A DNA stretch of 64,000 nt, from the NCBI GenBank assembly GCA_026874595.1, contig CM049310.1:42783558-42847557 (forward strand), in the 5' to 3' direction. The notes beneath the pieces were generated by a model. It saw nothing but the letters and a program-made list of their open reading frames with translations. It did no database searches and was not told the DNA's origin. Position 1 is the stretch's first letter. Each line of letters opens with the position of its first letter. Origin of the DNA: Sipunculus nudus. Lineage: Eukaryota > Annelida > Sipuncula > Golfingiida > Sipunculidae. The position numbers and the translations under genes are program-made. This document shows, piece after piece, positions 16,861 to 62,415 of the stretch.

Positions 16861-16869
16861 TTTATTCTT

Positions 16870-22699: not shown

Positions 22700-23395
22700 T
22701 TTTTTTATGAAATTTGCTATGTTAGAGCACCGTCAAACGGTCAAAAGAAGGTCACTGGGACAAAACATGAACTCGATCTCTAACTGGTCATTATCTGCCC
22801 ACACACCAAAAAACAGGCCAATATCTGAAGGTATTGCAAAAAAAAGTCAGTACATGTGTATTTGTCATGAAAATTTATATTTTTCATGAAATTTTCTAAG
22901 TTAAGGAGCCATAAAACGGTCAAATTCGGTCAACTGGGAAGAAACGCGAACTCGATCTGTAACTGGTCATTATCTGCCAACACACCAAAAATCAGGTCAA
23001 TATCCGCAGGCATTGCGAAAAAAAGTCCGTACATGTGTATTTGTCATGAAAATTTCTATTTTTCATGAAAATTTTAAGTTAAGGAGCCGTAAAACGGTCA
23101 AAATTCGGTCAACTGGGACGAAACGCGAATTCGATCTGTAACTGGTCATTATCTGCCTACACACCAAAAATCAGGCCAATATCTGCAGGCATTGCGAAAA
23201 AAAGTCCGTACATGGTATTTGTCATGAAAATTTATATTTTTCATTAAATTTTCTAAGTTTAGGAGCCGTAAAACGGTCAAAAGTAGGTCAACCGGGACGA
23301 AAAGCGAACTCAATCTGTAACTGGTCATTATCTGCCCACACACCAAAAATCAGGCCAATATCTGCAGGCATTGCGAAAGAAAGTCCGTACAACTG
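22700..23395. repeat. Four ~180-bp tandem repeats
   Basis: AACGGTCAAA recurs near 22,736, 22,915, 23,093 and 23,272, and each unit contains ACTGGTCATTATCTGCC, CACACACCAAAAA and TGCGAAAAAAAGTCCGTAC. ORFs across it are repeat artefacts. Confidence 0.9.
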
Positions 23396-27157: not shown

Positions 27158-27471
27158 TTATAGCATGCTGGAAGAACAAACAGCATAAAGGTTTAACATA
27201 TCCTCCGTTAGAGGTAACAAACGAATTAAAGTCCACAACGAACAAACACACGCCCAAACAACCACGAAAAGTTCAAGATTTGCCAGCCGCCCACTTGATT
27301 CGTCTCTCAGGTGACTCATGAAGACGTAGGCCATGGAACATAGCCTTAAAATGATTAAAATGGGACACGGTCCTAGAAGGTTGGCAGTAAAAATTCCAAG
27401 TTCACTGGTCTTGAAGCAAAAAAAAGAAGTTATCTCTGTCAAAATGTTGAAAAGATTTTCATGAATCTTAC
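27158..27471 (-). CDS. Read-through extension after Ig4 (hypothetical)
   Basis: Directly after the Ig4b donor the same frame remains open for about 104 codons in AT-rich DNA. It contains two hydrophobic stretches (TANLLGPCPILIILRLCSMA and LELFVVVWACVCSLW), a polar linker SHLRDESSGRLAN, and ends YAVCSSSML. An unspliced transcript would give a 4-Ig protein with a membrane-seeking tail. No poly(A) signal was identified, so this may be chance. Confidence 0.3.
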
Positions 27472-30400
27472 CCAGCACATTAAGGTAACCATCAGCCACT
27501 AGTTTACCATGGATATTCTCAACGATACACTGTACGTTCATTAGGTCGCTGCTTCCACCAGGACGAGCCTTCCTCACATTAATAATGGTCAAGGAATGGT
27601 CCCTGATCATCACGTTTGGTTTTACTTGCCTATCAGCTGCTGTAAATAGTTAAAATTTATCTACTTTATTTCAATATATAATTGTATGGGTAATTGCCTC
27701 CGCAAGGAGGATATGCATTCATCCACGTTTGTGTGTGTGTTTGCTTGTTCACAACATAAAACTAAAATGAAATCTCGTGAAATTTTGAGTACATTTCGGG
27801 AAAAGGCCAATAAAGAATCGATTAGATTTTTGTCTGGATCTGGCACAAGTCTTCAAAGAATATTCACAAATGTCCAGTCACTTATACACACATGAACCTA
27901 GAAATATGTGCCGAATAAGTGAATGCCCATATAGTCATATATTGTATCCCTTGGAATGCAGAATTCTAGTTCGCCAATATAATTAGTTTTGCACAATATA
28001 ATCAACCACCTCAGATATTCAAAGACATTGAAGTCTTCCATCGGTTAGGAATGGAATCATATTTACTAGATGAACCCGTGGAAAATCCACGGTTCCATAT
28101 GATAAATAATTTAGTAATGGGCTGGTAGGGACTGATTGTCGCATATTTTAATCCTGTTCTTTTCGCAGGGGATGCTGTTCATGATATATAGATCACTTAT
28201 GCTATTATTCTCCAAGAAACCCCCTCCTCTTAAAAGTCAACAAAGAATAAAAGTTATGCTAGTCAAGAAATAAAAAAAAGAAGTAGACGTGAGGCATATT
28301 TATAAGGTATACGAATTTTGCTTGATAATGCTTTTTTCTTCTGATACCAACATGGGCACGATGTCATCATTGCAAGAGCCTTGGCAATTTTATATATAAA
28401 CCATTTACACTGTCAAAATAATTTGAATGAATTATATGACTTTTTATAGAAAATTAAAAGTTTATGGAAGAGTATATGTATAAAATGAAGCTCATAGGCC
28501 ATAACGAAACACGATGTTTTTAGTTGTCAATTGATAGAAGTCTTGGGTATGATAACCAACACATATATATCATTGAAAGCTCTTGTATGCGTAAACGCAA
28601 CTAAAAGCTGCCAATGTGGAAAGACAGGCCGACTCATTCAGTATTAAATGCTTGTCTTTAGCTTTGTTGATCGATTATCGATTGCTCTCAGATATAAACG
28701 ACAGGTTTACATCTTTCGGTGCAAGTCCGTGGCAAAGAAATAACATCAAATTTGGTTCTTTGTTTGTCTTAAGTAAAATATACGCAAAAGGTGTATGCGG
28801 AATTTTCAAGAAAACTTGCAGATGGCTAGCGTAAAACCGCATGGACGATCCATTTAATTTTGGAGGTAATCAGAATCAACATAATTTTTTTTTCTTATAA
28901 GCCATTTTGACAATAGAAAAAATCCTTTGTCCCCATGTTGAATCCTCCCATTCGCATGCATGCAGTCTGCCATTAGCCAGGTGAAAAGGGGTCACTGAAA
29001 CGTGACAATGTTTATACATGAAAAGTATTCACTTGAACACATCGCGGATTAGGAGATACTGGTAAAGGTTTTTAGGCTCCGACTGCAGGATCTAATTTGT
29101 TAATAGAATCCCTATCCGTTTAAAAATATACCGGTAATATATATTTCATTTTTCAAAGTCCCTGGATGTCACCAGAGAGGTGACAATGCTTTGTACTTTC
29201 TTCTTCAGGGAGAGTGATGTCACCAGAGAGCGGTGACATGCTGGTTTAACGGGAATGGGTTTAATTTAGGTTCTTTTGTAGGTTGTGGGCGCGTATGTGC
29301 GCCCAGTCTAGGAAGCTGGGCGTTGATTGGCTGGGCAAGGGGCGCCACTATATAAGGCCCTAAAAGGGGCGGGATAGGGGGATATCTGCTAAAAACTACT
29401 TGCGTACAAGAGAGGTACTTGCTGTACGTGTCTTGGCGAGAACGACAGCGGGACGAAGTCGCTTCAGTGCTGTAGACTGGGAAAAGAGTCAGCCGACAGA
29501 AAACTTGGGATGAAGACTTTCGTTGCGGGTATACGTTGCTCGATTACTGCTATTAATTCGTCGGGAAAATATGAGACTATTTTCCACGTGTTCAGATATC
29601 TCAGGAGAGGGCTGGACCATAAGTAATGGACTGGCAACAGGTCAATGAGATATGACGTTGAAGAAACCCACGCTGTCAGGACCTGAAAACTACGGACTGT
29701 GTAGGACTGCATGTTAGCATCAGGACCTCCAAGTCCTGAAAGTGAGAGATCTGATTTACGGGGCCGTTCACGCGTGGTGGATGCCTGACTAATGAACGGT
29801 TGGTAGATTGGAGCCTTGTTACGTGCCCTATTGTTATAACGTCCCCTATTGTAATAACTATTACATTAGGGGTTACAAATGAGCTGTTTCTCGTAACCCC
29901 TATTGTAATAACGTGCACTATTGTTAAAATTATTACATTAGGGGTTGTATTTGCAACCCCTATTGTAATAACATTTTTATTACATTAGGGGTTGCGGTTG
30001 CAATGGTTTTGCACACCAGCTTTGGTAAAAAAAAAATGCGAATCCAGTGGAACAACGTATATATCGATACCTTTGATCGTGATAATATAAATAATTTGTT
30101 TTCAGCAAAGTATATCCGTATTTTAGTGCGATATTGTAATGGTACGTTTTTATTATTTGTTTTTAAATTATACAATATAAATGACTATTGTATTTTAAAT
30201 TGATGATCATTTATTTATAATATTGATTTTAAACGGGGTTGTGTATAAATTGCATGTATGTAGTACACATAATAGTGACTGACCCTTCATTCATTACAAG
30301 AGGCAACATTATCATAATTATTCATTAATGACTGTACTATTTTGTTCTACATTATCTAGAAATGACAATTATTAAGACACTTTTTTGTATGTCATCCGTT

Positions 30401-31618
30401 TGGAAACGTGATGAAAAGTATATGTTTACACTTAATAATCAACATAACATAATCAAATAACTGTAAGTTCCTCAATTATTATTTATTTTGTCACAATAGG
30501 CAACATTATTTCAAAAGTTTTTGGACCCAAGAAACCCCTATCGTAATAAAGTTCGTTATTGTAATGACCATTCAATAACTGAGGTCATTTACAATATAAA
30601 AAGGGTATTTCAATATTTCCTTAAATGAAACGGTTTTTAGGTGTGCTACTACCAATATGTCTATAAATCATAACTGTTCATTTAGTATCACCTATGTACT
30701 GAACAATATCCTTAATATTTTTCTGGCTTTCATCATTATTACAATAGGCAACGTTTTCACAAAAGTGGGGATCCGAGTAACCCCTATTGTAATAAAGTTC
30801 TTTCATGTAATAACCACTTTATAACCTATGTCATTTACGGTATAAAAGTTGTTTAAATATTTATTCAAATGCAACAGTAGTGTGGTTTACAAATGCTAAA
30901 ATGTCAGTAAATTATAACTGTTCATAATGTATCTCCATGTACTGCAAAAAATATCCATAAGGTTTTTCTTGCATACATTTTATTACAATAGGCAACGTTA
31001 TTACAAGAGTGGTGGGGCCCGAGTAACCCCTATTGTAATAAAGTTCCTTAATGTAATAACCACTAAATTATTCATGCTATTAACTGTAATTAAAAGGTAC
31101 TTTAAACGGTACCCGTATTGAGAAATAAAGGAGGTGATATTCCTCACGATCGTTATGTGTTGCGAATTTTTTAAGTTTCCGTATTGTACCCAAGAGTAAC
31201 ACATAGAAGAAATTGCATGCCGCCGTGCAGGTTTATAGGAAATCTCTCCATACGCCTTCCATATTTTATACATAAGGAATCCTACACGTTACTTGTCAAA
31301 GTCCGGTTTTTGGGCCCATCTCCCATGGGGGAGATTATTTTAAGTAATGGGAATAATAAAAGGAACAGAGCCATGGTAATAGTAATAGAACTCCGTAAAT
31401 GAACGGTAAGCCTGCCTGAGCAGTGAGAAATTTTTGTTCGGGCCATTTTGAATTTTTAGAAGATGACATTAAATATGTTGATGTGAATGCATATCTGTAA
31501 AAAAAGTTAAACGTATGATAAAGCAACTTTATTTGAAAAAGAAAATGTGTTTACTGTTTAATCAGCAGATACTTGCTTTCACGGTGGTCGATGGTCTTGA
31601 AGTGGAAGAGTCAGTGTA

Positions 31619-31671
<53 letters not shown>

Positions 31672-34600
31672 TACAGACATACATACATGGGAAAATTAAC
31701 CTTTTCAGACACAGACACACTACAATATAATATACATAGTGTCTGTGTCTGAAAAGGTTTATTTTTCCATGTTTTCACGTTAATCTCGAGTAATTTGACA
31801 CCATAGGACAAATTAAGCGACGGGTCTGTCGCAGCGCCATCTATCAGAAACAACACCAGGGTATCCCAGGGGGAACTCGGTCCATGGGACCTCCTGTCGA
31901 ACTCAAGCGCAACTTTCAAATTCCAAAAGGGAAAAATATTTCAATCTCAATAACCTAACAATCTGTATAGTTATCACTCAGAACAGGGGTGTAACAGTGA
32001 AATGTATGAACACCTGTTTGTTACTACCCTATAAACGACACACAACAATTGTCTGATATCGTGGTTATTACATTATTGGACGTTATTACAATTTGGGCTG
32101 CTCGGTCCAACCTGTATTGTAATATCGCTGCCTATTGTAATAACTGATCATGATACTATTGTCCACAAATAACAAAATAGTTCTTAACTGGAATAAAATG
32201 AAAATAAATAATAATTTCCAGAATAAAGCAATAATTGTCTTAAAATTATCCGTTCATATTATCCAGCTTATTTTTATTTAGATAAATTACTTATATGATA
32301 TATAACATTAATTATCGTATAATTAATATATAACATATAATATTATATTAATAATAATTTAATTGACGGGCAAATGCGGCGATTCCCTAGCCCTCTAAAC
32401 AGTATTTAACAGTTTATCACAAATAAGTGTTTGTTAAAATCACAACTAACATGTCTATAGGTATCGATTTGTGTGTGGTATCACAGTATTCACATTTGTT
32501 TTACCAAATCTGGTGTCCAAAAACCATTGCAACCGCAACCCCTAATGTAATAAAATATTATAACAATAGGGGTTGCAAATACAACCCCTATTGTAATAAT
32601 TATAACAATAGTGCACGTTATTACAATAGGGGTTGTGAGAAACAACTCATTTGTAACCCCTAATGTAATAATTATTACAATAGGGGTCGTTATTACAATA
32701 GGGGACGTAACAGAGCCTTACGCCTGTACATGTGTTTTAGGCCCGACCGAATCCACGGACTCTCGGTGTATAGAGAGGTAGTCACGGGTGCCGTACAAAA
32801 GGGACTTTAGAGTTCGTGTGTTATGTCCATGATTCATTCTGCGCGAGCGGATTCCTTAAGGGAGAACTTTGTGGTTTTGTGTGTAATGTGACTCTGCTAC
32901 AAGTGTCCTGTTTTGTTCTTGTGATGTGGAACTACTATAGAGCAGTGATGATATATATGTGGCTCTAATAATGTAAGTCTTACGTTTGGTATATATATTT
33001 TTATTAAATATATTGTTTCTGTTAAAAAGCGTTGTTTCGCTTCTTGGACGTGAGTGTGCATGATCCAGGGTTTCTTTCCGGGGTTTCCTTGCCTAAATTT
33101 ACAGTTTCAATTTGCATTGCCCTATTATCTTTTATCAACCTGGAACCACGTGGAGTACCGTGTGAGACTGAAGATTGTGTTTCTTAAAAAATGTGTGCAA
33201 CCCCCCCCCCCCCCGCCCAACTTACACACAGTGTAACAACCTTTTTTTAAAACCCACCTATAAATTGGATGAATTATTAAAACCATGGTCATAATTGAAA
33301 GTTATTTATGAATGTATGGAAATGAACGTACTTGTATACCCATACAATGTCAAACGGAGGTCTTGAAACTGGTTGTTCTGTTAACCAACCTGAAAAGCAC
33401 TCGCTCTGAAAGCGGAGTCATTTGGTCTTTATTTTGATTTAAAAGCTTTACTTCCTTTTGAGAGAAGTATTGGGATCAACGGGGATTAAAGTGGACCAGT
33501 GACCGAGAATTGCACAATACCCTCTGTGGCTAGTGAGCTCGAAATGTAGTTAACCCCAAGGCACCTCCAGGCAAACGCGACAGGCGTTGAGGAGCTTAAA
33601 GCACAACAGAAATAGAGGCATCTGTTAAAATTATTAACTATGCAGCTTAATAGGGCATACTCAAGCAAAATAAAACAAACCTGTCCTAGAAAGGCGCCTC
33701 ACAAATACGTGTGCCGAATTTCGAAGGCTAAATCAGAACGGAAGAACAACTGCGTATTATTTATATAGATGAGTTTTTTTCTATATCGATAATTTAATTT
33801 GGTCAAGAATTTTAGGTTGTTACTCTAAGTCAAATTTATATTCTGCGAAACCATCAAAAAGATACCTTTCCTGTAATTTTTTAATTTTTATTTTTAATTT
33901 GCAACTAATTTTTATTTTTATTTACTAATTTTAATTTTCCTAAAATTGACCTTTGTCGGAGTAATAATCACAGGTGACAGGTATGCAAGAGATCTGTCCC
34001 TTTTACCTTGATCTGATATTTGGAGCTGCGCGACTTTCTTTGGGATGACCTGGCGATTGTAGATCTCTAGTTATGGATTATTTTTATTATGACTGAAGGA
34101 CACAAAAGGCCATAGAAAAAAAATGAGACACGATGTGCAAAGAAGGTTGGTGTATCATTTAAAGTCCTTACCAGGCCTGGCATTGATGTACCAAGTTTTG
34201 GTCACCATGGGAACACCTTCTCCTGCACACACGAATGTAGCGTTTTCTCCCTCTGTCACGTTCAAATCCATCGGCTTGATTGAATGTCCGTGTTGTTTAA
34301 GCCATCTTGGCTTAACTGTAATAACAACGTTAAAATATGTACTGCTTAACCCTTAAAACAGTGGGTCATTACGATCAATCATTTTTCTATGGTTCACCAA
34401 AATGATTATGAAAGTAAAGTTTAAGATACTCGGACGGTAAAGCATAGTCTGATTGACATTTATGTCATTAGTATTTTAAATAATGCATTCATAACTATCG
34501 AGGAAACGCTTTTTTTATTATGATAATTTTGAAACGTAAATACCAGGGTATTTTTTTTTTAAATTTGATTTAACCTGTTTGTAAAATAGATACGAATCAC

Positions 34601-35955
34601 ATCATGAGCTTTGAATTTAGATATTTAGATTTGAACAGATATTAGGACGGAGACACTGAGTATTGGTCGTCGCCAACTGGTGTCGCAGGTTATTTGCCGT
34701 TGTAGTATAATTTTTAACCCGATAATAAAAGTTTTAATACAAAGAAAATTCCTAAAAGGATTTTGTCATTTTAGATCTAGAATTTCTAAACAGAGATTTG
34801 GCTATTGGTGTTTAAATGTTATGTAAAGTTATATGGGGCCATTTGTGAGCCCAGAGAGATATGTCTTTCCTTTTATTTTATGGCTCTGATTTTATGGTAA
34901 TTTATAATCTAAAAATTGCAATTTTTCCACTGAAAAATGATGAAGAGACCTGCATTTAGCTAAGTTCACTGCTTAGAAGTCATATAACATATATATTCGA
35001 ACATCATCAGGAATGCACCGGACAAACCAAATTACACGATGGGACAACATCCAGTCAGTGTTTTGCATGCTTATTGCACCAGAGACAGTGAGTTGATTCA
35101 GTTGTTTGCACAAGAAACTAACAGAGAAGCCAGGCAAAACTAAGATAGTTGAATGACAGTTAACATAAGAAATAATTATAAGGATGAAAATCAATTTATT
35201 ATTCTTATATCAAAGCAATTATTTATAAAATTTATATTGAAGTATGGTTCTACAAAATTAAACATGAATGACATAAATGTATGTAAAATGAGAGCCTCGT
35301 GGGATAATAAGATAGAGTCAGGGATACGTAGTTTATAATATTTAATAATGTTGTGTTTATTTTTTTTTATCATTGGTTGTGTTGATCAGCAGATAAGTTT
35401 AATATGTCACACCACGCACGAAGCCGACATATATTCCCGGACCTTTCACGCAAAAGTCCAAAATGATAACACTGTCTAGCTGTTAACAAAACACAGGTTT
35501 TTTTCCGGTAACGTCAAACCGCCATAGACTGGTTCCAATCTCACGATAGAACAGTTCTTTGGTTTTCGCAACTTGGGGCTCGTCCGGGATAGATATCGAT
35601 AAATAGCAACAGACATCCAGTGGAAATCATTCCGTTTGGACTGTGTGTCGCTTGTGTCATAGGAAGGGATATGTATACATAAAACCGGAGGTACCAGTGC
35701 CAAATGTCGGAGAATTTTTTGTCGTTGGTCCGTGAGATTTTTTGCGTTATCAACATGGCAACCGCAGTCCAGCAGTGGATTAAAAGTGGCCAGGACCTAG
35801 GTTATGAAGGGCCAGCATTGCAAGAGCTTTTCAAAGAGCAGCAGGATGCTGACAGAGAGGAATGACATCTTCACAGAGAGAAAGACCGGGGGATGGAACA
35901 AGCGGAGAGAGAACGAGATAGGGAACAAACAGGGAGAACGAGAGAGGGAACAAGC

Positions 35956-36027
<72 letters not shown>

Positions 36028-36757
36028 CGTGAGCGGGAGAAACAACACCATGAGCAGCTGATGATGGGAAAGAAACTCCAGCCGCAAGAGAGTACTGTAT
36101 ACGGCCCAGACGCCAGTGACGTCCATGGACGTATACGCTATCCTGAACAGCCCAGATTTACAGATAGGAGGGATGATCTGGACAGCTACCTGGTGTGGTT
36201 TAAGAGGTTTGCCGAACAAGCCGACGGGAAGAAAAGAGTCGTGGTCGACCTGATTATCAGCGCTTCTGACAGGCAAGACTTGTGATTGTTATTGTCGGTT
36301 GTCCAGTAGTCAGTGTTTTGACTATGATGTTATAAAACAGCTTTGTTTGCAAAATATGATCACACTGAAGATGGTTTTAAGGGTCAGGTTAAGAGAATGT
36401 ATAACCAAGGGACTCAGAGAGTCCAGGTCAGTTTATTGTTAGTCTTTAAGATTATCTGGATAGATGGATAGAGTTATCACATACACAGAGCTCATTTGAG
36501 GGACTCTGTGATCTGATAGTGAAAAGAACAATTTATTGACTTTTGTCCTGGCGACTTAGCTATCCACTTGCATTAAGGAGCCCCAGCTACAATGTCAGAT
36601 CTGGATGAGTTGGCAGATAACTTCTAGTTGCCAGAAATAGACAACTTGCAGGTAGACAACAACCTGGGAAGTAAAATGTAAACCGGTACCCACCGAGTGG
36701 CCAGACACTGTCGAATAGGCAGTTACATTGAAATTCAGTTACGATTGCAGGTCAAAG

Positions 36758-36788
<31 letters not shown>

Positions 36789-39700
36789 TCATTCAGGAAT
36801 AGAGGCCTGAGGCCCAAAGTTCCAACTGTAAACATTCATTTTGCCATAACATTAACAAAAAAATACTTACAAACATGTGCATTCTAAGTTATATCAAATA
36901 TAAATAAATACTTGTGATTCTGTTAGATAGAAAAGAACATTCCAAAGAGAGAATAAAAAAAAAAAAAAAAAATTAAAAAATTAACATAATTAAAAATTCT
37001 CCCATGTATTACAAAGTGGTACTATAAATATCAATTATCTAATATTTTTTTTTTGTCTTTTTATAAAACCAAAGTTAACAAAGGCTGCTAAATTTGAAAT
37101 TTCTAACAGATTTTCCAAATTGAAAATTCTTTTAAAATTATATTCATCAGGTTGTAGCATATCATTTCTTAAATATTTCACACGTAGATTATTATACAAA
37201 GGGCATTCTAACATAAAATGACATTCATCTTCTATGATTTTATAACCAAGATTGTAACAGTATTTGCATATTCTTTCTTCCCTGTCAATTCCTTTATGTC
37301 GACCTGATTCTACTTCTGATTTATGGTTGCTACATCTCAATTTGGCGAGTGCCTTGTAATATTTTTTATAAGGTACACATAAAAAATACTTTTCTACTGT
37401 TAACAATGATTTGAAAATTCCATAGAAATACAATTTATTACTGGAGTTAATATCATTATGTCAATCTTGTACTGCCATGTCTTTTACTCGTTGCTTAAAC
37501 TGTTCAAAAAAAATATTTATATCTCCCACATATTCTATCATCCACATATAACCAAATCCTGCCTGAAATAGTAATGTTCTAATATAAGTGGCCCAATTAA
37601 TTTTTCCATTGTTGTCCATCTTCCTTAAATACATATATAACTGCTTTGGGTATCTAATGTCTTCCATGTGAATAATTTTAAACCAGTATTTTATACAACG
37701 AACCACATATGTAACAAAAAGTGGAAATCTGCCACAATCACCTCAAGCTGCTGCATTTGAAGTGCTATCACCTACACCGAGAACATACTTACAAAACTTA
37801 TACTGTACTCTCTCTAGTATTTCAATTTTAGAATGACCCCAGATCTCACTTCCATACATTAAAATTGGTGCTACCATACTGTCAAACAAATTAAAAAGAT
37901 GTTTCACAGATACTTTCTTATATTAAAATCCCTGATAATACTTACAGCTTTATTTGCCTGCATTGCTTGCTGTTGGTGGGTCCTAGTCCATGATAATTTT
38001 GAAGTAAAAGTGATCCCCAGATATTTATAGTGGGACACTACATCCAATTTATGGTTGAACAAATACCATTTTTCATTATTCCTTAATATACCACCTCTTC
38101 TAAACACTATTATTTTTGTTTTGTCCATGTTTATATGTAATCCATATCTTATACAAAATTCCTTCAGATGATTAATTTGTTGTTGTAGTCTCCCAGGTCA
38201 AAGAACATCTGACAATAAACTGAAGGAGCAAGGGATCTGTTTCTTTAAATGTGGAAAGGTTGGTCATATAGCACGGGATTTTAGTAATTGCTATTAATTT
38301 AAGGGAGGTTCGGTCATTTAGCGCAAGATGGCAGGAATTTGTTAACACTGGATAATGAAAGCGATGATAGCCAACAAGGCAGAGAGCTAGTCAGACTAGG
38401 ATTAACTCGGGTATTGCATATTTTAGCGTAGAGAGGGAGACAGGTTCAGCTGAGACTGCAGAGGTTCAGTCAGGGGGTCCTGTAGACTAATGTATACGTA
38501 ATACTAGTGCTCGGGTTATTGCACGGTCAGAAGGTTGATTACCAGTAGCCCAGGGCAGAGTGGGCGACAGTGATGTAATTATGATGAGAGACATTGGGTG
38601 CGATGATGTCATTCTCGGGACTAGTCTGAAAGGTTACGACTAGTTGTTAGATAAGAAGATACGTGCAATTGGATTTGATTAGCACGAGAGTGAACAACGC
38701 GTTGCGATGGAAGACATAGACACAACGTACGATGTAGGCAAGGTAGAGGCCGTTTGTGTAGACTGCCCCTTGTTCGATTTGCTTGTAAAAAATATTGCGG
38801 GGGTATGTCAGTCACATGGTCCAGACCCTGAGTGGCATGTGGACTCAGGTTAAACAGTCTAAGCAAACATATTGGCAAGTTAACGTGAACTCTGGTTGAG
38901 ATTTGATAAAGCTATCCTGTACGCAATTTGTAGAGCCCACTAATACTGATAGACAGGATACGGTCCATAATCATTTTTTTTAAAGTTAGTTTTTAAGTTA
39001 GGAATATTTATAGCTAAAGAATCTGATGTAGTGGTAGGGGCTGATATGTATAGCTAAAGAATCTGATGTAGTGGTAGGGGCTGATATGTATAGCTAAAGA
39101 ATCTGATGTAGTGGTAGGGGCTAATATGTATAGCTAAAGAATCTGATGTAGTGGTAGGGGCTGATATGTATAGCTAAAGAATCTGATGTAGTGGTAGAGG
39201 CCGATATGGACCAGATCAGAAAGAAGAAATCACACCGGTTATTGAGAAGTACAATGATGTGTTCACTAATGTACCTGGTAGCACTAACTTGGTAGAATAA
39301 AGAGCCCAGTTGACATCCGAAGAGCCAGATAAATATAAACCGTACCTTGTACTATATGCTATAAGGGGATCTCTCAAGAATAATTTAAATGGCAATGTAT
39401 GTAAGATTGATAGAGTAGCCAGACTCAGTACTAGAAAGAAGAGATGAGCGTTTTGGCTTGGTTTGATATTACAGAATTGATACAATGTGAAAATCTACTT
39501 AGGGTAGTAAAAACAATGCAGCAGACTCACCAAATTGTGTCATGTAAATGATTCTTAAGCAGGTTGTGTAAACAGTAGCAGCACGTTACTCTGTATGAAT
39601 ATGGATAAGCACAACAATGCTATATTTTATATGATATGATGGCCATGTTGTGGATTTGATACATATATAGTTGCATGTTAACATGATGCCATCTCATTTC

Positions 39701-42700: not shown

Positions 42701-45700
42701 GCAAGGTCAACTAATGAATTGCGAAGGTCACACCTATAAAGTTGACTGCCACCGTCAGCTGGTTCAGTATGCACAAACAGCAAGTTACCTGCAATTAATT
42801 GTTTTTATTTTATTGGTAAAATAATTGCAATTAAAAGTTACATGTAATGAATTTACATAGGTCAAGTTGCATGTAATTGATTATACAAATAACAATTTGA
42901 TTCAGCCGTAATTATCTTATGCAAGCAGGTATTTACCTTAATTATTTTGCACAAACATGAAGTTGCTTGTAATTAATGTATATAAAGAGCAAGTTACTTA
43001 ATTAACATACCCCTACCTATCAATCATTTCCTAAGAAGGCAAGGTATTTCTTGTTGCATGTTACTTATTCTTAATCAAACAAGTCGTATATATGAAGCCA
43101 AGAGCAGAAGTATTGATTACAGAAATTTTGTTTGTTATGGCACTGTCGCTTGAATCGTTAATTGTGTTGATATTTGGCCCAAAACAAGATAAATTTTGAT
43201 GTAAACAGAGAATCCAAGAAGTCTGTTCCAAAGGTATCAGTAGGGTCAGTTTATATTGGCGGTTTTAGCTTGTTTTAGGCCAGAATAACGCCACCAATAA
43301 CGATTCAAGCGACTGTGGTCATAGGTTCCTATACACCTATCTACTTACACTCTTTGACCTGAATATTATTTCCCAAAGGAACACATCCATGACAGTTGCG
43401 ATAGAAATTGAGTGAAGGTATCCGACATATAGCTTAATGAACAAATAAGTCATTACCATTATCATCTATCGTGCGCCTCCTGTCAGGTCTAATGGGTGTA
43501 GGGTATTTGTCAGAGATGTCATTAGCTCTGCTCCAGGTGTATGTCGGTGTTGGGTTACTCGCCAGAGGTTTCACATAGACTATCAAGCTGTCCCCCTCGT
43601 TAACCTTATAGTTTCGAACAGTGGGCTTTTCCTGATAATCTTTTATGTCTGTAGCACGCAAAATTAAGATTCAGAAAGGCCAATGGAGCTCAGCCGGACA
43701 AAGTGTACCGACTTTTGCACATGATTGTTTGCGATAATAAACTAATATAACATCTATATATGACGCAAATTAAAACTTTTATGTAACATATACATGCATA
43801 TTAGCGAAACAAATGGGGCATTAAAACGAATGTTTTACAATATAAGTGTAATATAGAATTTAATGACATTTTTCCTAAGGCTTTTTAAATATTTATATAA
43901 AATTATGAGTACTTATATAAAATATTGTTTCGAGTTGCTTGCTAAATCACCGATGATGGTTTAATTTCCAAACACTATGCTGATGCATCAACATACAGTT
44001 ACTCTTTACACATTTCAAAATCAGTGTTATACATTGGATATACAACCACGTTGTGACTAATCACATTTAAATCTTTTTAGGTTCATGCAAATGGTAGGAA
44101 AGAGTTTTTTAGTTGAATCAATGTGATTAAAATCCTTTCTATGACACGTGTCATTTATATACACCACAGATGTTTGGTTTCAGGTCTGAAGCACACAATT
44201 TCAGTGATCAGAAACAAATGCTTGCTCGGTGTGTAATTTCAGGCGTTAATTTATATCTGTGATTGCTGCTTCTTTGAATGTCCATTTTCAACCCAAACCG
44301 ATTCACTCACACACTTCGCAATTCTAAGTTATGAAGAATTTACATTGCGCAAAACATTTTTTTTGTTATGGGAATAGTATACGTACATGCTCTTGTGATG
44401 GTAGCGATTGTGGACATGGCTGTTCCATGATTGTTTGTTGCGAAACACTGGTACTTTCCTTCACTTGACTTTCGTGGTCCACGTACTCTGTAACCGCCGT
44501 CTATTGGAATAACTTTATAAAGGCTGAAAAAGTAAGGCTGACCGTTTCGTTCCCATCTTACACTGTAAATAAAAAAATCATTCAACCTTAAATTATGATG
44601 ATATCAATATTCAAAAAGGCGATACGCTTAACCTTTGATAAGGAATAGGTTCATGGACTGTGTAGGTGTCAGTCTTCACCAAATGAGAATTCAGGTAACT
44701 GAGTCTCCAAAAACGATTCAGAATTTGATCGTTGTAAAAATAAATCGTTATTCCGCTCTATACTTTGCCGATACACGTTCCCCTGCCGCAAAACTCTCTG
44801 GGAAAATAGCTTCCTTCCTGGACATTGTCCTCTGAGTAATTTCCTGTCGCAACCCACGCCCTTATCGAACCATGACAGGTTCATTTCTCCCAGTTTCTTA
44901 AAACCACTGATGGAGCTGCACACTAAAACCCGGATGTCATAGGTCGCACGTCAATATTATTTGTATACCGCTAGTTCTATAAAAAAACAGAATCCTGATT
45001 TCATATTTTCTACGCCCACGCTTGTTAGGCTATTTTGCACCGCAAGTCCCTGGAACCTGTACAGATAATATATCAGGGGGATTATGAATAATCACCATGT
45101 TGTCCATTAGCAATACCTTAGGTAGCGGTTATACACTGCAGTAGTTCCAGATCTCCCTTGCTTTAAACGCTACTTTGTTTATATCAAGTTAATCCATACT
45201 TGATTCCATAACTGTTTAAATTACTATAACAGGTGGTAAAGTAAATGTTCCTTCACACGTGAAATCACCTTAAGGCAATTAAACCTTACATTTCTCCTTT
45301 CGATTTTGTTAATGGATTTAAAAAATATTCCCAAAAATCAAGGTGAAAAGGAGTAGCTTATTGGAATCGGGTTTATAGACAGTAAATATGGACCCGCCAA
45401 AAAGGCCTCCAAAGATGGACGGATAAATCCGAAAGGCGTATTTGGATGGGGCGAGCGTCCCCTTTATTCGACCTTAAAGACATTGGGAAATAGAATGATA
45501 TTCAATTATTATCGAAAATGCGTCTCGCGTGGTTTTCTTTGCTACATCAGAATCCCAGAGTCCACTCCCGGCACATTGGTTTACCTGATCCAGGGGGCTG
45601 ACATTTACCGCTTCTATAATTTTGTTTCTCCAACTGAATTCATATATACAAGATATGCTTTTCAGATAAAGTATCTCTATTTTTAGTTTAGTGCCTGAGT

Positions 45701-46626
45701 TAAGGAACATTAACCTGATGCATATTCATAATATAATGTTAAACGTTGTACTTCCGGTGCAATATAGTACTCCATTACAATCGTGACGCAATGTAAACTT
45801 GAGCTATCAGTCGAAAGACTAAATGAATTGTATAACGTGCATGATATTACTCATGCTTCTACACTATTAGATAGAATTCAGAGGAACTGAGGTACATATC
45901 AGTGTGATATTTTGTTTAATAGCTGAGAGAAAAATGTTGACTATGAAAGTGAATTTTCAACCAAGATCTCTATATGACAGAGTTTTATTTATCCTACCTT
46001 GGTGTAGGTGTCCCTGATGCCTTGCATATAAAATCCAGGTAATTATAGATTCCCGGACGAAACCTCGTGTCATTCATGTAAACGTCAATTTTAGGAGGGC
46101 GAGCCACTGAAAAAGAAATGATAAAATAAGATCAGAAAACTCATGTAAATGATATATGGCATATACAATACACCATTAAAGTATTAAAATAATCTTCATT
46201 GATCCGTCTTGGGAAAAGATCTGTTATCCATGCATCGTACATTTATTAACAACTTCGCCAGTACCAGGTTTTAACTAAGCTTAACTTTATTAACAGGAAA
46301 AGCCTGTAACAACGAGGTGGTTATTCCAGGATTTGAAAAAAGAGGAGGCGCAGCCCTAAAGTCGGGAGGGGGTTGTCTGCGACTTTCAGACATATATATA
46401 TATATACTAATAAATATTTTTTTTCAGATTATATTGATGTTCCACAAAGCCCTATTAATAGAAAGCAAGCATATTTTAACTTGTTTTAACACACTGCGTG
46501 GCTGTAAAATTGTCTCCTACTAAAAATATCAAACATTTTTAGTTCTTGCATTATTATTATGATTATTATAAGTAATTTTGTGGGGTTTCTTATTGAAGTT
46601 GTTGTTTTTATGTTAACCGTGGGGCA

Positions 46627-46680
<54 letters not shown>

Positions 46681-49600
46681 GCATTATCTGAACAACAGAA
46701 ATAAATATGCATCAATAAGCGAGGTGTTGTAAGTAATTGGAATTTTTAAGTAGAAAATAGTTAGCACACATGTCGAAGAATTAACATGGATTAATTATTA
46801 AATGTCACTGAATCTGTCAAAGGTGACTTCATCTATTTTTCATGTGAAGCTTCTGATAATGAATTCCATAATATAGTTCTTTCGTAGATAAATTATTTTT
46901 GCAGCAGTTCAAATTGAACTGGAGCCAGTTGGAGTAGAAAAAGTAATAATGATTATCTGACCTGATGTAATTAAAGTACAGTCAAGCCCGCTTATTGTCA
47001 TGTCGGTGGTGCATGCATAAATTATTATAATAACCGGAATGTGACATTATGCGGGCTTCAATATTGATGTCCTTTTGAGTCAATGAGGAAGCGTTATGTC
47101 TCAAATAATGTTTAATAAATCGTCAATTAAAAGAAAATGTGTATGAATATTTTTATTGCACAACGGCATATCAGATTACTTTGATGCGCACCTGACAATT
47201 TATTTCCTGTTAGTTTTGTGCCGCATGCCGCAATAACTGACAAAAATCCGACTTGCCAACATAAAGAGACGTAGCGTCTGGGTCATGAGGTCAAATGTCT
47301 GGAAATATGCGGCACAGTTATAACGTTATGCGTAGGTAAACTATTTTTTCTTATAATTACTTCCCCGACTATTGTGCCTTATTTTCAATATATCTTATTT
47401 ATGACTCAAACTTCCATGATCGTCTTTATGATAGGACTGTTGGGGGAGCGGGCATCGTCATGCCATTGTCATCTTTCTGAAGTTTCGCCGCGATTGAGGT
47501 TTTTGACCGGGTTTCTCCTCCAGTGCTCACAAAATCTCCAGATTTTCGTGGAGCCTTGAAGGGGTTTTTCCAGTCGTTAGCAACGTTAAGAGCTCGTGCT
47601 TCGTGTCATCCCGGCGAAACCTCACCAAGGTGTACCAGGACCTTGCAAAGGCCAGAAGTTCATTATGTATGACATGTGATCGCAAACATCGCCCTTAATT
47701 GTTAACGTACGAAGAAACGCAATGATCTGGATCACCGTGGTATCTTAAGACGTTAATTAGCTAAGTGACGGGGAGCGACCTGCATGCATCACTGCAGTTG
47801 CCTGTGGCAGACAGGTGGGAAATTTGATCGTTTGATACGCCTGACCGATTACAGGCTCTTGGCCTCGTTGATCGCCGTGTCGGGGCCTGATGTGATATTA
47901 ACTGCGATCTGGTATCACTGCCAAGGGTTCCAAGCATGACAATGAACGGGATTATGACAATATTCCATGATATTAAACGGTCAGATTTACCATTGTTTAT
48001 ATAGGAAATGGATTGGGATTTCAGATTTATGTGACAATAAACGGGATTTTCTATTAACCGATATGACACAAAGTGGGCTCGACTGTATATAAACAAATAT
48101 CAGAAGTGAAAAATACTCATCGACTTATTTACATGCCATCTTCAGGCTTGTATATTACTATTAAAAATGCAGCTTTCAAACATCAAGCCTGGCCATCAGG
48201 CTCCAGTGACAGTAGCTTGGTATAAAGAGGTGATTTTAATTACCCCGGAATCAAGTAACCGTAAGCTTCTCTATAGTCTCTTGATATATTCCAGAGTAAA
48301 TGTAAAAAAAAAAATAAGCATAACAAGCATCTAGTGAAAGTACAAATAGCATGCATGGATGGTTTAACAGTTTTTGGCCATCCACCATGATGTTACAGAA
48401 CAATCGTAGGGTTTGGGACTTCACTTCTTCACACAAACAAAATAGAAAAAAAGATATAGTAAAAAACATGACAGAAATATGTAAGTATATAATCCCTTTA
48501 CTGTTTAGATTTATTTTAGAAATTTGTCTGCCACTCTTTACATTTACATTACAGATAATATCTTGCTAAGCTTTTCTTCACAAAATTTCAACAAATACAA
48601 CAAAAATAATTTCTCTGTAGGACAATATGAACCTTTAGAACTTATAACAAATATACATCATTATATCAGATATATATATCTATATTTACATTACAGACAA
48701 TATCTTGCTAAGCTTTTGTTCTTTCTTTTCCACATGGGACTAACATTACCACACTCGTGCATAGAGAAACACGAAAATATTTATTTACTTTTACGCCATA
48801 TTTAATCTTAGTTTGTGTATACTTTAATAATCGAACAAATTAAATATGAGTTAACATACACACTTGCCAGTAGTTGACTGGCATAAGTGTAAGCGTTTAA
48901 AGGGGGCGGGGACGCCCCCCCCCCCCCCCCCTATGAATAGGCCCCTGCAACGTCATATTTTGCCAAGTGTTTAGCCTCAATAAAGAGAAGATATGCAAGT
49001 ATCACGTCATTTAAGGGGTTCCGTTTCAACCTAGATCTACAAAATTTAAACCTGGTATCCTGTCATATTTTGATGTCTTCCTTGAAACAATGTTTTAACC
49101 ACCTTAACGCTAAATTCTTCGTAGAGTTCAGCTGTGCCAGATACACATTTGGTTTGCCCATTAAATGATAAAATTGTAACTATACTGTGCATCCATTTTA
49201 ATATACGTCGCTATCAAGAATTATATATCAAGGCCAATGGTTAAAGGTAAATAAACATTTGTAATATTTTCACCATATATCATTGTTTTTAATATCCCAT
49301 AAATTACTCAGTAATAGATTATTGTACTTTTTTATCTGATATAATTTAAACCGTTAAGTTATTATAATGGAACTTCAATGTTTGTCATGTAAACCGTTTA
49401 GCACCGACAGTCCAATATATTTGCATTATTATTCTTATTATAATCATACAGTCAAAATGATGCATCTCACATCACTTCTGTAACATCTGAAACAAGATCT
49501 TAAAAAAGAGGGGCAAAGTAGACTTAATATGTACCTCTCTAAAGATAGTTATCAGAAAGAAAACGGTACGAAACGCAAAATCGTGCGCATCATATCGGTA

Positions 49601-50112
49601 TTAATTATATATTATTCTATTTCAATTTTTCGTCGTTGAGGCTGGCCCATCGGAATTGCAGGTTAAACTCTATATAACCATCCATCCTTATACATGTACA
49701 TGAATGTCAAGGACATGTGTATGAGCAAGGACTATTTAAAAACAATTTTGATTAAGCTTTATTTTTTTCCTAATAATTAATAATCCAATAATCATGAAAC
49801 TAGGAATTGGTTATAAATTAGCAACCCAGCTTATTGAGTTTTACATAAGCACTGCTCATTTATTGGAAGGATTGGTTATGGTAAGTCTTATGAAATTTGT
49901 AATTATAGTGTAACTCTAAGGTCATGCGAAAATCCAGTCGTATGCAGTTTTTAATTGATCTCTTATATATATTCTGCGCATGAAATTACCGAACACACAT
50001 TTATTTTTGTCCAAAAACCTTGATAATCATTATTTGTATTACCATTTTGTTGTTGCATTGTTAATATTCTGTTAATAAATAGGTGATTTAGGAAAAGTAA
50101 GTAATGATATAT

Positions 50113-50171
<59 letters not shown>

Positions 50172-51163
50172 CAGCAAGGAGATCATGTTAACATAAATGT
50201 ATTTAAATGTTCAAATTAAAATTAGTTGCAATGGAAATAAGGCTCTTACATATATCATCGAATTCAATCAATTTGATCTGGCAATATATGGACATGCCAG
50301 CTTTTCTAGGCTTGCCTGAGGATGTGTTGAATAAACGGGCTGTTTTACCAATTCCCGGAGATAAGGGGGGGACTTTTTTCGTGTGGGGATGTGTCATAAA
50401 AGCCTATTACTAAGTGTGTACGCTGGTTGATTAAGCCGGGGAAATTCTTATATGATATTTATAATCGTATACAAATACGCACTGGAAATTACTATGTATT
50501 TATTCATGGTAGACGGTGTGCAAACACATGTGTACTGGTATGATTCCGGGTATTTAACAGGATTAATAGATAAAGTACATAGATAATTTTAATAGGTTGG
50601 TTCATACGCAAGGCACTGCATTTCTCGTTCTTGATAATGTCGATCAAAACAATTATTCTGTATAAATAATAGATAAATATAATAATACATAAAAAATATA
50701 ATAATTATAAAGCACATAAAGGAACACTATTTTATCAGCCGGATGAATCAGATGATCTCAGTAATAGAAGAGTCGACAATATTCAACAGTATAATGGTTC
50801 AGAAGTGTAATGGATCAGGATGTGAAAGTAAAATAATAAAATCTTAAGTTTACATAATGTTTCGCCAATTTGATTTTAGTTTTATGTTTTACTATGCGTC
50901 CAGTGAAACTATAGCAGACAAGTTGAATGGACAGGAAGGACACCCAGTAATTAATTAGCTTAGGACCATAATCTGAGTTGGCATTAAAGACTCCCGTGAT
51001 ATAAATATTGTTACGGGGTGACATAAAAGCGGACCGAACTGTCTCGCATATGAAGCATGCTTTTCTAGCGAAGCAGTTGGTACGCCGGACTTGTGCGCCG
51101 ACGACATGGGCTCGAATCCAGGATCGACCCAGTATTTTTCCCCTGAGCTTTGTCTTCGTAATA

Positions 51164-51220
<57 letters not shown>

Positions 51221-51359
51221 GCACATCATAAGTGGATCAATCAGAAATTTTACATAAACATACCCTCCCGGACCATCTTGGTAAATCTAAATCATCAGTA
51301 TCATTATCCAGTGAGGGGACACCAGTCTGTCTCTGCATAATAATACATGATTTTCTATA

Positions 51360-51404
<45 letters not shown>

Positions 51405-51849
51405 AGCTAATTCTGATTCCATGTATACTAATGCTAGCCATCTGAGGTCTCGAAAGCTTGATTAATCTATAGAAAGACGTGTGCGTCATAATCATTGTCA
51501 TTCTCACTCTCTGTCTCTCTGTCTGTCTTTCTCTCTCCGCTCTCTATCTCTCTCTCTCTTTCTCTCTGTATATTATATTTATATATATGGTCTTATTAAT
51601 TATAAATTCCAATTATTACCAACCCTTTCTTGTAGAGAAGTCCTGGTTGATTCCATTACATTTTCAGTTTTTCTAATGTTAATATCTTGTTCCAGTGAAA
51701 AGCGTTTATTTACATATACTTACATGAAATGCCCCCAAAAAGCGATAGAAGGTGTGGAGAAACGGAGTAAGTCTCTGACATTTACCTCTCTGTGATGCTG
51801 TTGATGTAAGTGTAACAGGGAAGAAAAGTAGAAACCATGGGGCGACCAT
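27158..51849 (-). CDS. L1CAM/neuroglian-type immunoglobulin protein (Ig1-Ig4)
   Basis: Split minus-strand gene: 51,849-51,786 (signal peptide), 46,106-45,998 (Ig1a), 44,562-44,387 (Ig1b), 43,648-43,457 (Ig2a), about 42,233-42,139 (Ig2b, uncertain), 41,958-41,853 (Ig3a), 41,588-41,419 (Ig3b), 34,315-34,172 (Ig4a), 27,639-27,472 (Ig4b). Each Ig is coded by two exons, as in L1-family genes (family knowledge). Phases agree at all junctions except those around Ig2b. Diagnostic motifs are CKASGTPTPSVRWERNGQP and YQCFATNNHGTA (Ig1), RCIFSGYPLPTVFW and DSGFYGCKASNSAG (Ig3), and FVCAGEGVP and QCIVENIHG (Ig4). L1-type proteins are neural adhesion receptors; here the domains after Ig4 are not found in the window. 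It may be a 4-Ig derivative, or its 3' end may lie outside. Confidence 0.88.
27472..27639 (-). CDS. Ig4 exon b
   Basis: Acceptor AACTATTTACAG, donor CTGG|GTAAGA; 168 bases. Reads ADRQVKPNVMIRDHSLTIIN, then DLMNVQCIVENIHGKLVADG, YLNVL. LTI.NV, QC...N.HG and YLNV match L1-family Ig4. If the donor is not used the frame stays open to a stop at 27,158. Confidence 0.92.
27690..27880. repeat. Dispersed repeat fragment (related to 59.85-60.18 kb)
   Basis: Shares GTGAAATTTTGAGTA-type sequence with 59,880-59,900 (ATGAAATTTTAAGTA) and CCTCCGC... with the CGGAGG block near 60,150. Probably two fragments of one interspersed family; the class is unknown. Confidence 0.4.
27900..29150. other. Intronic stretch, no gene seen
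   Basis: AT-rich with no supported exon. Part of the Ig4 intron of the minus-strand gene. Confidence 0.5.
29160..29816 (+). promoter_or_regulatory. LTR-like or promoter-like sequence, left part
   Basis: GC-richer than its surroundings. It has an inverted CCAAT (GATTGGCT at about 29,325), a GC box (AAGGGGCG) and a TATA box (CTATATAAGG at 29,349), then a leader-like stretch. The sequence resumes at 32,719 after the foldback element and runs to a T/A-rich end near 33,040. A solo LTR is the simplest reading; a cellular promoter is possible. Its LTR ends were not located. Confidence 0.45.
30480..31100. repeat. Internal ~243-bp repeats of the foldback element
   Basis: AACCCCTAT.GTAATAAAGTTC recurs at about 30,533, 30,779 and 31,024, each preceded by ACAATAGGCAAC.TT and followed by TAATGACCA/TAATAACCA. 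A fainter first copy (GAGGCAACATTATCA) lies near 30,300. Confidence 0.85.
31620..31665. repeat. (AT)n microsatellite in the foldback element
   Basis: A TA run inside the element's interior. Confidence 0.95.
31688..31773. repeat. Hairpin with 21-bp perfect arms
   Basis: AACCTTTTCAGACACAGACA...TGTCTGTGTCTGAAAAGGTT, with a loop of about 18 bases and weaker pairing outside the core. No T run follows, so it is not a terminator. Confidence 0.9.
32719..33236 (+). promoter_or_regulatory. LTR-like sequence, right part
   Basis: Continuation of the 29,160-29,816 sequence after the foldback insertion. Ends in an A/T-rich stretch (TTTATTAAATATATTG), a C16 run at 33,199 and CAGTGTAACA at 33,227, which could be a 3' LTR end. 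Confidence 0.35.
33240..34170. other. Intronic stretch, no gene seen
   Basis: AT-rich, no supported exon or repeat boundary. The plus-strand ORF starting at 34,123 is the antisense of the Ig4a exon. Confidence 0.5.
34172..34315 (-). CDS. Ig4 exon a
   Basis: Acceptor TTGTTATTACAG, donor CCTG|GTAAGG; 144 bases. Reads VKPRWLKQHGHSIKPMDLNV, TEGENATFVCAGEGVP, TWYINARP. The phase joins correctly to Ig3b (KVE|V) and to Ig4b. About 7 kb upstream of Ig3b's end lies a Gypsy element that fills the intron. Confidence 0.92.
35574..35590 (+). promoter_or_regulatory. Retrotransposon primer-binding site (tRNA-Pro type)
   Basis: TGGGGCTCGTCCGGGAT matches the 3' end of animal tRNA-Pro (TGGGGGCTCGTCCGGGAT) except for one missing G. 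It sits between the LTR and gag, as expected for priming minus-strand DNA. Confidence 0.8.
35755..36285 (+). pseudogene. Gypsy gag remnant
   Basis: ATG at 35,755 reads MATAVQQWIKSGQDLGYEGP and ALQELFKEQQ up to a stop at 35,863. A long Glu/Arg-rich stretch partly made of (GA)n follows, then MMGKKLQPQE, RYPEQPRFTDRRDDLDSYL and VWFKRFAEQADG. The DDLDSYL..F..FAE motif is typical of Gypsy gag in invertebrates. Broken by at least one stop and frameshifts. Confidence 0.82.
35943..36040. repeat. (GATA)n and (GA)n simple repeat
   Basis: GATAGATAGATA then (GA)n within the gag region. The long LSLSLS frame on the opposite strand is an artefact of it. Confidence 0.95.
36759..38193 (-). mobile_element. 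5'-truncated LINE inserted in the Gypsy element
   Basis: The minus-strand frames encode the C-terminal part of a LINE pol: KTKIIVFRRGG...HYKYLGITFTSKLSW (about 38,120-37,990), then KINWATYIRTLLFQAGFGYM, then a Cys-His motif ICKYCY...DECHFMLECPLY (about 37,270-37,190). The 3' end carries (CTTA)n. The 11-bp target duplication CAGGTCAAAGA is at 36,748-36,758 and 38,194-38,204. Clade not assigned; several frameshifts. Confidence 0.88.
37035..37433 (-). pseudogene. LINE pol C-terminal zinc-finger fragment
   Basis: 132 open codons with CKYC..H....C, the Cys-His finger found at the C terminus of many LINE polymerases. Part of the 36,759-38,193 element. Confidence 0.75.
38240..39330 (+). pseudogene. 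Gypsy nucleocapsid, protease and RT-flank remnants
   Basis: KCGKVGHIARDF at about 38,254-38,290 is a zinc knuckle with the last Cys changed to Phe. VIMMRDIGCDDVIL (about 38,576) resembles the MRDTGC active region of Gypsy proteases. VIEKYNDVFTNVPG (about 39,238) resembles the stretch before reverse transcriptase. Stops are frequent and no catalytic YVDD was found. Confidence 0.6.
39009..39208 (+). repeat. Five 40-bp tandem repeats in the pol region
   Basis: TATAGCTAAAGAATCTGATG plus TAGTGGTAGGGGCTGATATG repeated five times with one or two changes. Each unit could code FIAKESDVVVGADM, but 40 is not a multiple of three, so the amplification broke the frame. Confidence 0.95.
39941..40615 (+). 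repeat. 3' LTR of the Gypsy element
   Basis: Begins TGACACAGTG directly after a purine tract. 39,955-40,075 matches 35,287-35,400 directly, while about 40,425-40,612 matches 35,402-35,568 in reverse complement. The outer end is uncertain. Confidence 0.6.
41419..41588 (-). CDS. Ig3 exon b
   Basis: Acceptor GATCTTTTAG, donor GAAG|GTATCA; 170 bases. Reads PLPTVFWLGKLPQNHVTY, HLLTIKNPKEEDSGFYGCKA, then SNSAGESQPHGIELKVE: C, E, F and G strands of Ig3 with Trp and Cys in place. Confidence 0.92.
41853..41958 (-). CDS. Ig3 exon a
   Basis: Acceptor CTTTTTCCAG, donor GGATA|GTAGGT; 106 bases. Reads PKKDKRPKLMFQSGPVVRIV then EGVPEVTLRCIFSG. Two leftover bases plus the first base of the next exon give Y, so the joined sequence is IFSGYPLPTVFW, a textbook Ig C strand. 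Confidence 0.92.
42139..42233 (-). CDS. Ig2 exon b, ambiguous
   Basis: Two readings compete. With acceptor CTGACGAG at 42,234, the frame gives GTEQQEVLHKRRKKSDQEFV then ICNGALPN, which looks like the F strand of Ig2, but it ends in phase 0 at CTG|GTTAAT and does not join Ig3a. With acceptor CAACAG at 42,220 an 81-base exon keeps phase on both sides but shows no Ig pattern. An A6 run (GACGAAAAAAGTC) may mark a frameshift or a sequencing error. Confidence 0.4.
42440..43430. other. Ig2 intron, no second exon found
   Basis: AT-rich with a G9-10 run near 42,520. Searched on the - strand for a better Ig2b exon; a frame near 43,330-43,430 (NFYRNCHGCVPLGNNIQVKE) is protein-like but has no clean acceptor. 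Confidence 0.35.
43457..43648 (-). CDS. Ig2 exon a
   Basis: Acceptor CGTGCTACAG, donor AATG|GTAATG; 192 bases. Reads YIKDYQEKPTV, VNEGDSLIVYVKPLASNP, TPTYTWSRAND, RRRTIDDNG. The layout EG..L....P....P.PTY.W fits L1-family Ig2, but the expected B-strand Cys is Val (SLIVYV). The frame stays open past the donor as NDLFVH then stop. Confidence 0.85.
44387..44562 (-). CDS. Ig1 exon b
   Basis: Acceptor TTTATTTACAG, donor GCAT|GTACGT; 176 bases. Reads VRWERNGQPYFF... then SSEGKYQCFATNNHGTAMS, containing the core Trp and second Cys of Ig1. YQCFA.N..GTA is characteristic of L1/neuroglian Ig1. Confidence 0.92.
44600..45990. other. Ig1 intron, no gene seen
   Basis: Only short chance frames on both strands, none with a recognisable pattern. 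Confidence 0.5.
45998..46106 (-). CDS. Ig1 exon a
   Basis: Acceptor TTCTTTTTCAG, donor CCAAG|GTAGGA; 109 bases. Reads ARPPKIDVY...FRPGIYNYLDFICKASGTPTP: the A-C strands of an I-set Ig domain with the first conserved Cys. The ARPPKI opening is typical of L1-family proteins after the signal peptide. Confidence 0.9.
46631..46677. repeat. (AT)n microsatellite
   Basis: A TA run between the Ig1a exon and the Tigger-like element. Confidence 0.95.
46979..48085. mobile_element. Tigger/pogo-like non-autonomous DNA transposon
   Basis: Terminal inverted repeats CAGTCAAGCCCGCTTATTGT and, from the other end, CAGTCGAGCCCACTTTGTGT, continuing as CAT.TCGGT. Flanked by TA on both sides. 1,107 bp with no transposase frame. 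The ends fit the CAGTY-starting pogo/Tigger branch of Tc1/mariner. It lies in the first coding intron of the Ig gene. Confidence 0.82.
48090..50110. other. Intronic stretch, no gene seen
   Basis: AT-rich. Contains a C19 run at about 48,914-48,931 and two imperfect copies of TTACATTACAGA.AATATCTTGCTAAGCTTTT (48,543 and 48,687). Confidence 0.5.
50118..50168. repeat. (AT)n microsatellite
   Basis: A TA run about 50 bases long. Confidence 0.95.
51070..51140 (+). repeat. tRNA-derived SINE head with AT tail
   Basis: A-box-like TAGCGAAGCAGTTGG and B-box-like GGCTCGAATCC about 33 bases apart, a tRNA-like layout. A short body and an (AT)n tract at 51,163 follow. The acceptor stem does not pair well, so it is a SINE and not a tRNA gene. 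Confidence 0.6.
51163..51220. repeat. (AT)n microsatellite
   Basis: A TA run directly after the tRNA-like SINE, probably its tail. Confidence 0.95.
51361..51402. repeat. (AT)n microsatellite
   Basis: A second TA run 140 bases downstream. A CT-rich simple repeat follows at 51,500-51,570. Confidence 0.95.
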
Positions 51850-61389: not shown

Positions 61390-61994
61390 TTCGGTTCGCT
61401 TCTGCTACTAACGAGGTATGCACATTTCCGTATCTTTCTTCAGGAATTTCCATGCCTTAAAACGTACATTAAATTCATCGATCATATCTTCCTCGCAACA
61501 ACCTATAATTTATACGTCCAACAATAGTAACCAGTCAAAGATTATCGAAAACCTGAATGCCCTCGGGTCCCAGTCCGGTTCGCAAATGTAAACGTCATCA
61601 CTCACCAGGCCTTCACGGTAAACATACCGGTATATGAATTTCTTGTCGTGACCGCAGCACCACAATTTAAATGTAAAAGAAATATTTGTACACATCTTAT
61701 TATGACAGTATCTCGCTGAAAATTAATATTTTCTTTTACATTTAAGAATAAAAACCTGAGCCAACATTCTTCATATTAGTTAATTCATCTCCCCAACCCA
61801 ACGTCTTTAAAACCTACTTGTATAGAGATTAAATATTTCATTTATCCATGTATTTGCAGATATAAACCTTTACACATTATAGGAATCATGGTTGAAAATT
61901 CAGTAAAAGTTTTGGCACTCAACCTGGGGCTCTTAAATACCAATACACTCGCAAACATCACATTCGTTGCTGTGTTGTTATTGTGTTGTTATTG

Positions 61995-62415
61995 TGATAA
62001 ACGTTAATCATAGCAGAATATGTTTACCTTCCGATTCAGAAAAGTACTCTTGTTTTATCTTTAATCACAAACGGGTTTTCAATGGGGCTTAATAGAGAGC
62101 ACAGACATGTTTTCGGTGCCGCTGTTGAGCACGGTTTGAAAGCTGTTGCGATGACCTTTGTCGAACAAGGGTCATTAGGATAAGTGCAGTGTTATAGGGG
62201 AGTGTTATTTTATGTGAGCAAGCATTGTTTGCAAGAAAATAAAACAAGGCTTGCTGCATATCTAAAATAACTGAATGGTTCCTCTATCATTATAAATCAA
62301 ACAATCATCGATGCATATCATTTCGCACAAGAAAATTAGTTCTTTGTTACCCCTGAAGGTTGACCAAATAATCATTTGGCAAACCGGGATCTTGAGTCCT
62401 ATTTAATTAGTAGTT
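61995..62415 (+). repeat. Dispersed ~400-bp repeat, copy 2
   Basis: Homologous to 3,560-4,000 from GATAAACGTTAATCATA onward. Followed by a short GGTAGGGTAGATCAGG tail. Confidence 0.8.

Follow-up and report, generated by a model that had tools for sequence, protein, structure and literature searches.

Does a neuroglian-type gene that appears to stop after four immunoglobulin (Ig) domains really end there? The question is raised by a locus of Sipunculus nudus (GenBank assembly GCA_026874595.1, contig CM049310.1, positions 42,783,558 to 42,847,557 of the forward strand), a stretch of 64,000 nucleotides that we analysed as a whole and call the window. The original prediction described a gene with a signal peptide and recognisable Ig1, Ig3 and Ig4 exons, and proposed that it could be an independent, hemolin-like derivative of the L1 family. 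In our analysis the locus is very probably explained by a tandem pair of minus-strand paralogues of the L1 family (neuroglian type), in which copy B is intact in its front part and copy A is a broken remnant lying upstream. The broken second copy is new here, as is the completion of the copy B model with its Ig2 exon pair.

Copy B consists of nine exons that join into an open product of 419 residues, made of a signal peptide and Ig1 to Ig4, with each Ig domain divided over two exons (a and b). The model begins with the start codon and signal-peptide exon at 51849-51786 (-), directly preceded by an in-frame stop, and continues on the same strand through Ig1a (46106-45998), Ig1b (44562-44387), Ig2a (43648-43457), Ig2b (42788-42663), Ig3a (41958-41853), Ig3b (41588-41419), Ig4a (34315-34172) and Ig4b (27639-27472). 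The exon phases (0>1, 1>2, 2>1, 1>1, 1>1, 1>2, 2>1, 1>1 and 1>1) agree at 8/8 junctions. All acceptors carry AG and the donors GT, save for one GC donor (GCAAGT) after Ig2b; Ig4b is followed by a GTAAGA donor in phase 1. The two introns preceding Ig4b are long and measure 7103 and 6532 bases, calculated from the exon coordinates. Pfam finds four Ig_3 stretches in the 419-residue product (E = 1.7e-35). The signal-peptide exon and the Ig1, Ig3 and Ig4 pairs were thus where the original prediction had put them, with phases matching at every junction; what that exon list had overlooked was the Ig2 pair. In the gap-free alignment of Ig2 to contactin-2 and contactin-5, copy B has a valine where the first Ig cysteine belongs, and the second cysteine is kept. 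Because of this replacement, Ig2 appears to have lost its standard disulfide, which would leave the second cysteine unpaired.

To which family does copy B belong? A query made of Ig3-Ig4 found a six-Ig neurofascin chain as its best match among solved structures (105.8 bits), followed by Robo2 (86.0), a four-Ig neurofascin chain (84.5), contactin-2 (72.4) and hemolin (47.1); the same query had no match when scanned against viral contigs. The whole product matched the neurofascin chain 3p3y over residues 47-418 (E = 3.1e-31), and in this query the six-Ig neurofascin chain scored 129 bits, the four-Ig chain 112.2 and hemolin 81. Several of these rankings weigh against an L1-type assignment. Robo2 comes second with Ig3-Ig4, above the four-Ig neurofascin chain; over the whole product a contactin-2 chain (144.1 bits) and a 384-residue contactin-5 chain (129.1 bits) lie above neurofascin, and contactin-2, -5 and -4 all outscore four-Ig neurofascin; and a query with Ig4 alone ranks Robo1 first (57.5 bits, a sum of several weak domains), with neurofascin at 32.0. 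The contactins share the Ig1-Ig4 arrangement with copy B, but with Ig3-Ig4 contactin-2 stays at 72.4 bits against 105.8 for neurofascin, and the GPI anchor and fibronectin type III (FNIII) domains of contactins are not seen in the window. Membership of the L1/neuroglian family, assigned by best match and not by a tree, is our best reading of these scores, and the neurofascin-like end of Ig4 helps it.

The kinship with L1 and neuroglian that had been proposed therefore stands, as the best match for Ig3-Ig4, whereas a special link to hemolin does not: none is indicated, because hemolin scores below neurofascin both over Ig3-Ig4 and over the whole product. Hemolin is not the closest sequence match of copy B (47.1 versus 105.8 bits for neurofascin with Ig3-Ig4), and as judged by these comparisons the parallel with it is one of architecture only. 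Like L1CAM, neurofascin and neuroglian, copy B carries a signal peptide and Ig1 to Ig4 in order, with neurofascin as its best solved relative for Ig3-Ig4; it differs from them in that no Ig5, Ig6, FNIII domain, membrane helix or ankyrin-binding tail was recognised inside the window, and in the missing first cysteine of Ig2. In L1, neurofascin and contactin, Ig1 to Ig4 are folded into a horseshoe, an adhesive head through which one cell binds another that carries a like or related head; Ig1 to Ig4 of copy B would be expected to do the same.

A second Ig copy, copy A, lies just upstream of copy B on the same minus strand, at 60.9-58.1 kb. It comprises a remnant of Ig3b at 60867-60778 (-), an Ig4a that has lost its acceptor AG (about 59813-59670, -), an Ig4b with a frameshift (about 59218-59059, -) and an Ig6-like exon in which the reading frame changes (about 58298-58101, -, ends approximate). 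By tblastx, copy A matches Ig3b, Ig4a and Ig4b of copy B in the same order and on the same strand. At the DNA level only Ig4a aligns with copy B at E 1e-5, with 83% identity over 171 bases. We considered whether A and B could be alternative exons belonging to a single gene and rejected this, since A is located upstream of the start codon of B and is frameshifted. A comparison of the two copies over 105 codons gives 0.22 nonsynonymous (dN) and 0.73 synonymous (dS) substitutions per site, a pairwise dN/dS of about 0.31, which suggests long constraint before copy A decayed; the estimate is rough, because the three stretches compared have very different dS values (0.33, 2.28 and 0.89).

This spread of dS also weighs against our explanation of the locus as a pair of L1-family paralogues, as do three further points. 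The frameshifts of copy A could be assembly errors. Its Ig6-like exon reaches an Ig_3 score of 19.5 bits, below the cut-off of 30. The same exon matches contactin-1 (residues 487-525), but Robo1 ranks higher. The exon obtained 14.0 bits with our in-house Ig profile, which itself includes a neuroglian Ig6, and we regard the assignment to Ig6 as weak. Neither the profile nor Pfam recognised an Ig5 in the roughly 760 bases between Ig4b and the Ig6-like exon of copy A, or any Ig or FNIII domain in the 6.3 kb between that exon and the start codon of copy B.

Taking A and B as tandem paralogues, the split between the two copies would be old, purifying selection would on average have acted on them until copy A decayed, and their common ancestor would have reached beyond Ig4. 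That this ancestor ran past Ig4 is probable because copy A has an Ig6-like exon, and the same exon, if read correctly, weakens a reading of copy B as an ancient four-Ig state. Should copy B indeed end after Ig4, a later shortening is more likely than an old four-Ig condition, since the ancestor probably extended further.

Whether copy B ends there depends in part on what lies left of Ig4b. Pfam, run on the three minus-strand frames of the 27.4 kb left of Ig4b, matched no Ig or FNIII domain at E values up to 1; in a control on copy B itself, scans of this kind recovered 4/7 of the covered Ig exons (Ig1b, Ig2a and Ig3b out of six exons, and Ig4a in a two-frame scan with E up to 0.1). The in-house Ig profile was built from eight sequences taken from outside the window and was used to score reading-frame segments of at least 22 residues. 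Seven of the twelve known Ig exons (four of eight in B and three of four in A) scored higher than 7.4 bits, the top background value of the window. In positions 1-27460, on both strands, its best score was 3.4 bits, and ten block-shuffled windows peaked at 4.4-7.1 bits. An FNIII profile reached 3.6 bits at best in the same interval, compared with 3.9-8.3 in shuffles, a search for which there was no known FNIII exon to serve as a sensitivity control. With FNIII domains 1-2 of Drosophila neuroglian as tblastn queries against the window, the best E value was 0.64, that is, noise, and ankyrin-tail motifs were found in none of the six frames of the window. The statement that no Ig5, Ig6 or FNIII exon can be recognised left of Ig4b within the window is thus borne out by Pfam and by both profiles. 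A full set of exons from Ig5 to FNIII could hardly evade these scans of 27.4 kb; a single exon could.

Two features in this region bear on the end of copy B. Past the Ig4b donor the frame stays open for about 103 codons before a stop (27471-27158, -), a length reached from 0.5% of minus-strand start points, and it contains two hydrophobic runs discernible by eye. One of the four poly(A)-signal variants tested, AGTAAA, is present near this open tail, which we consider a weakly supported candidate for an alternative end of copy B. A Pex2_Pex12 match in the tail (13.7 bits, cut-off 25.1) was taken as chance. On the opposite strand, the end of a von Willebrand factor type D (VWD) domain was found at 5835-5957 (+), inside an open frame at 5784-6236 (+), with 24.7 bits against a cut-off of 22.9; within a longer segment the same stretch scored 20.0 bits, under that cut-off, and it matched Fc-fragment-binding protein with E = 1.7e-5. 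Pfam found no further exons of this neighbour on the plus strand of positions 1-17000. The exon possibly represents a neighbouring gene, or a fragment of one, standing in the way of a leftward continuation of copy B.

Three mutually alternative readings of the end of copy B share the whole of the probability between them. We tentatively place foremost, at close to an even chance, the reading in which copy B is a longer and perhaps full-length L1-family gene, with an intron of more than 27 kb after Ig4b and the Ig5, Ig6, FNIII, membrane and ankyrin-binding exons following to the left of the window. The donor after Ig4b (GTAAGA, phase 1) is good, the two introns preceding Ig4b are already long, repeats and remains of reverse transcriptases abound in the DNA to the left, and the sister copy has its Ig6-like exon; the intron required, however, would have about four times the length of the longest intron seen in copy B and would span the VWD exon of the opposite strand. 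That same exon is easier to accommodate if copy B is short but functional, ending after Ig4 and encoding an Ig-only protein, secreted or anchored by its tail, with a hemolin-like architecture of independent origin. The 27.4 kb devoid of recognisable Ig or FNIII exons, the lack of recognisable FNIII exons in copy A before copy B begins and the frame that stays open for some 103 codons all fit this reading, which we nevertheless hold to be rather unlikely: no terminal exon was identified in the window, AGTAAA is the only one of the four poly(A)-signal variants near the open tail, the donor after Ig4b looks functional, and the Ig6-like exon of copy A points to a longer ancestor.

The lack of recognisable 3' exons in the window is equally what would be seen if copy B were a decaying duplicate, with its 3' part gone and no useful protein made from it, as its already broken sister, the valine in place of the first conserved cysteine of Ig2 and the GC donor might also indicate. 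A long-dead copy would not still have 9/9 open exons whose splice sites are usable and whose phases agree, and the pairwise dN/dS between A and B speaks against decay as well, so that we judge this reading unlikely. Taken together, an end beyond the window and a decaying duplicate are likelier than a hemolin-like stop.

Secretion, adhesion and ancestry are what we infer for copy B. In its most far-reaching form, the proposal would be that a tandem-duplicated L1-family gene lost its FNIII, membrane and ankyrin-binding parts in both copies to become Ig-only and probably secreted, that one of them subsequently died and that the other lost its Ig2 disulfide, in parallel to insect hemolin and by a separate route; we think this sequence of events unlikely. 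An end of copy B after Ig4, if real, would add another and separate example of a neural adhesion gene reduced to the Ig head, and would raise the question of a repeated recruitment of this head for soluble binding. If copy B continues past the window, it would be one more duplicated neuroglian-type gene. Broken copy A offers a yardstick within the locus by which any shortening of copy B could be dated.

How does copy B compare with the Ig-only proteins already described? As far as the window shows, it resembles hemolin in having a signal peptide and four L1-type Ig domains, and differs from it in matching neurofascin better and in the Ig6-like exon of its sister copy. In the excerpts of two papers (PMC8625317, PMC9163686), hemolin is mainly characterised in insects, hemolin or hemolin-like proteins are named from crustaceans and molluscs, and the molluscan defence molecule (MDM) of Lymnaea stagnalis is presented as related to hemolin and as having five Ig-like domains. 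MDM (accession AAC47132 in a table of PMC7297532) is an Ig-only mollusc protein; compared by the description excerpted from PMC8625317 only, it has five Ig-like domains where four are seen in copy B. Since MDM and hemolin-like mollusc proteins have already been described, the hemolin parallel in molluscs is not a new idea. We recognised no paper on a four-Ig L1-family gene of a mollusc among the matches listed, which comprised titles and the beginnings of abstracts, with most subscription journals outside the coverage. According to the excerpt of PMC9795677, one type of neuron in an octopus brain shows high expression of more than one neuroglian-like gene.

The window also contains several features of other kinds. 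Rfam at gathering thresholds and ARAGORN reported nothing in it. A reverse-transcriptase match indicative of a retroelement is present at 20697-21308 (+), with E = 5.2e-26, and weaker reverse-transcriptase matches, below the Pfam cut-off, occur at 14061-14327 (-) and 38006-38191 (-). Two tandem arrays were found, one at 14407-16867 with units of about 713 bases, successive copies of which are 97-98% alike, and the other at 22701-23391, with 3.9 copies of a 179-base unit. Finally, a dispersed repeat of about 370-430 bases is present in three copies that are 74-78% alike, at 3558-3986, 61989-62432 and 63077-63466.

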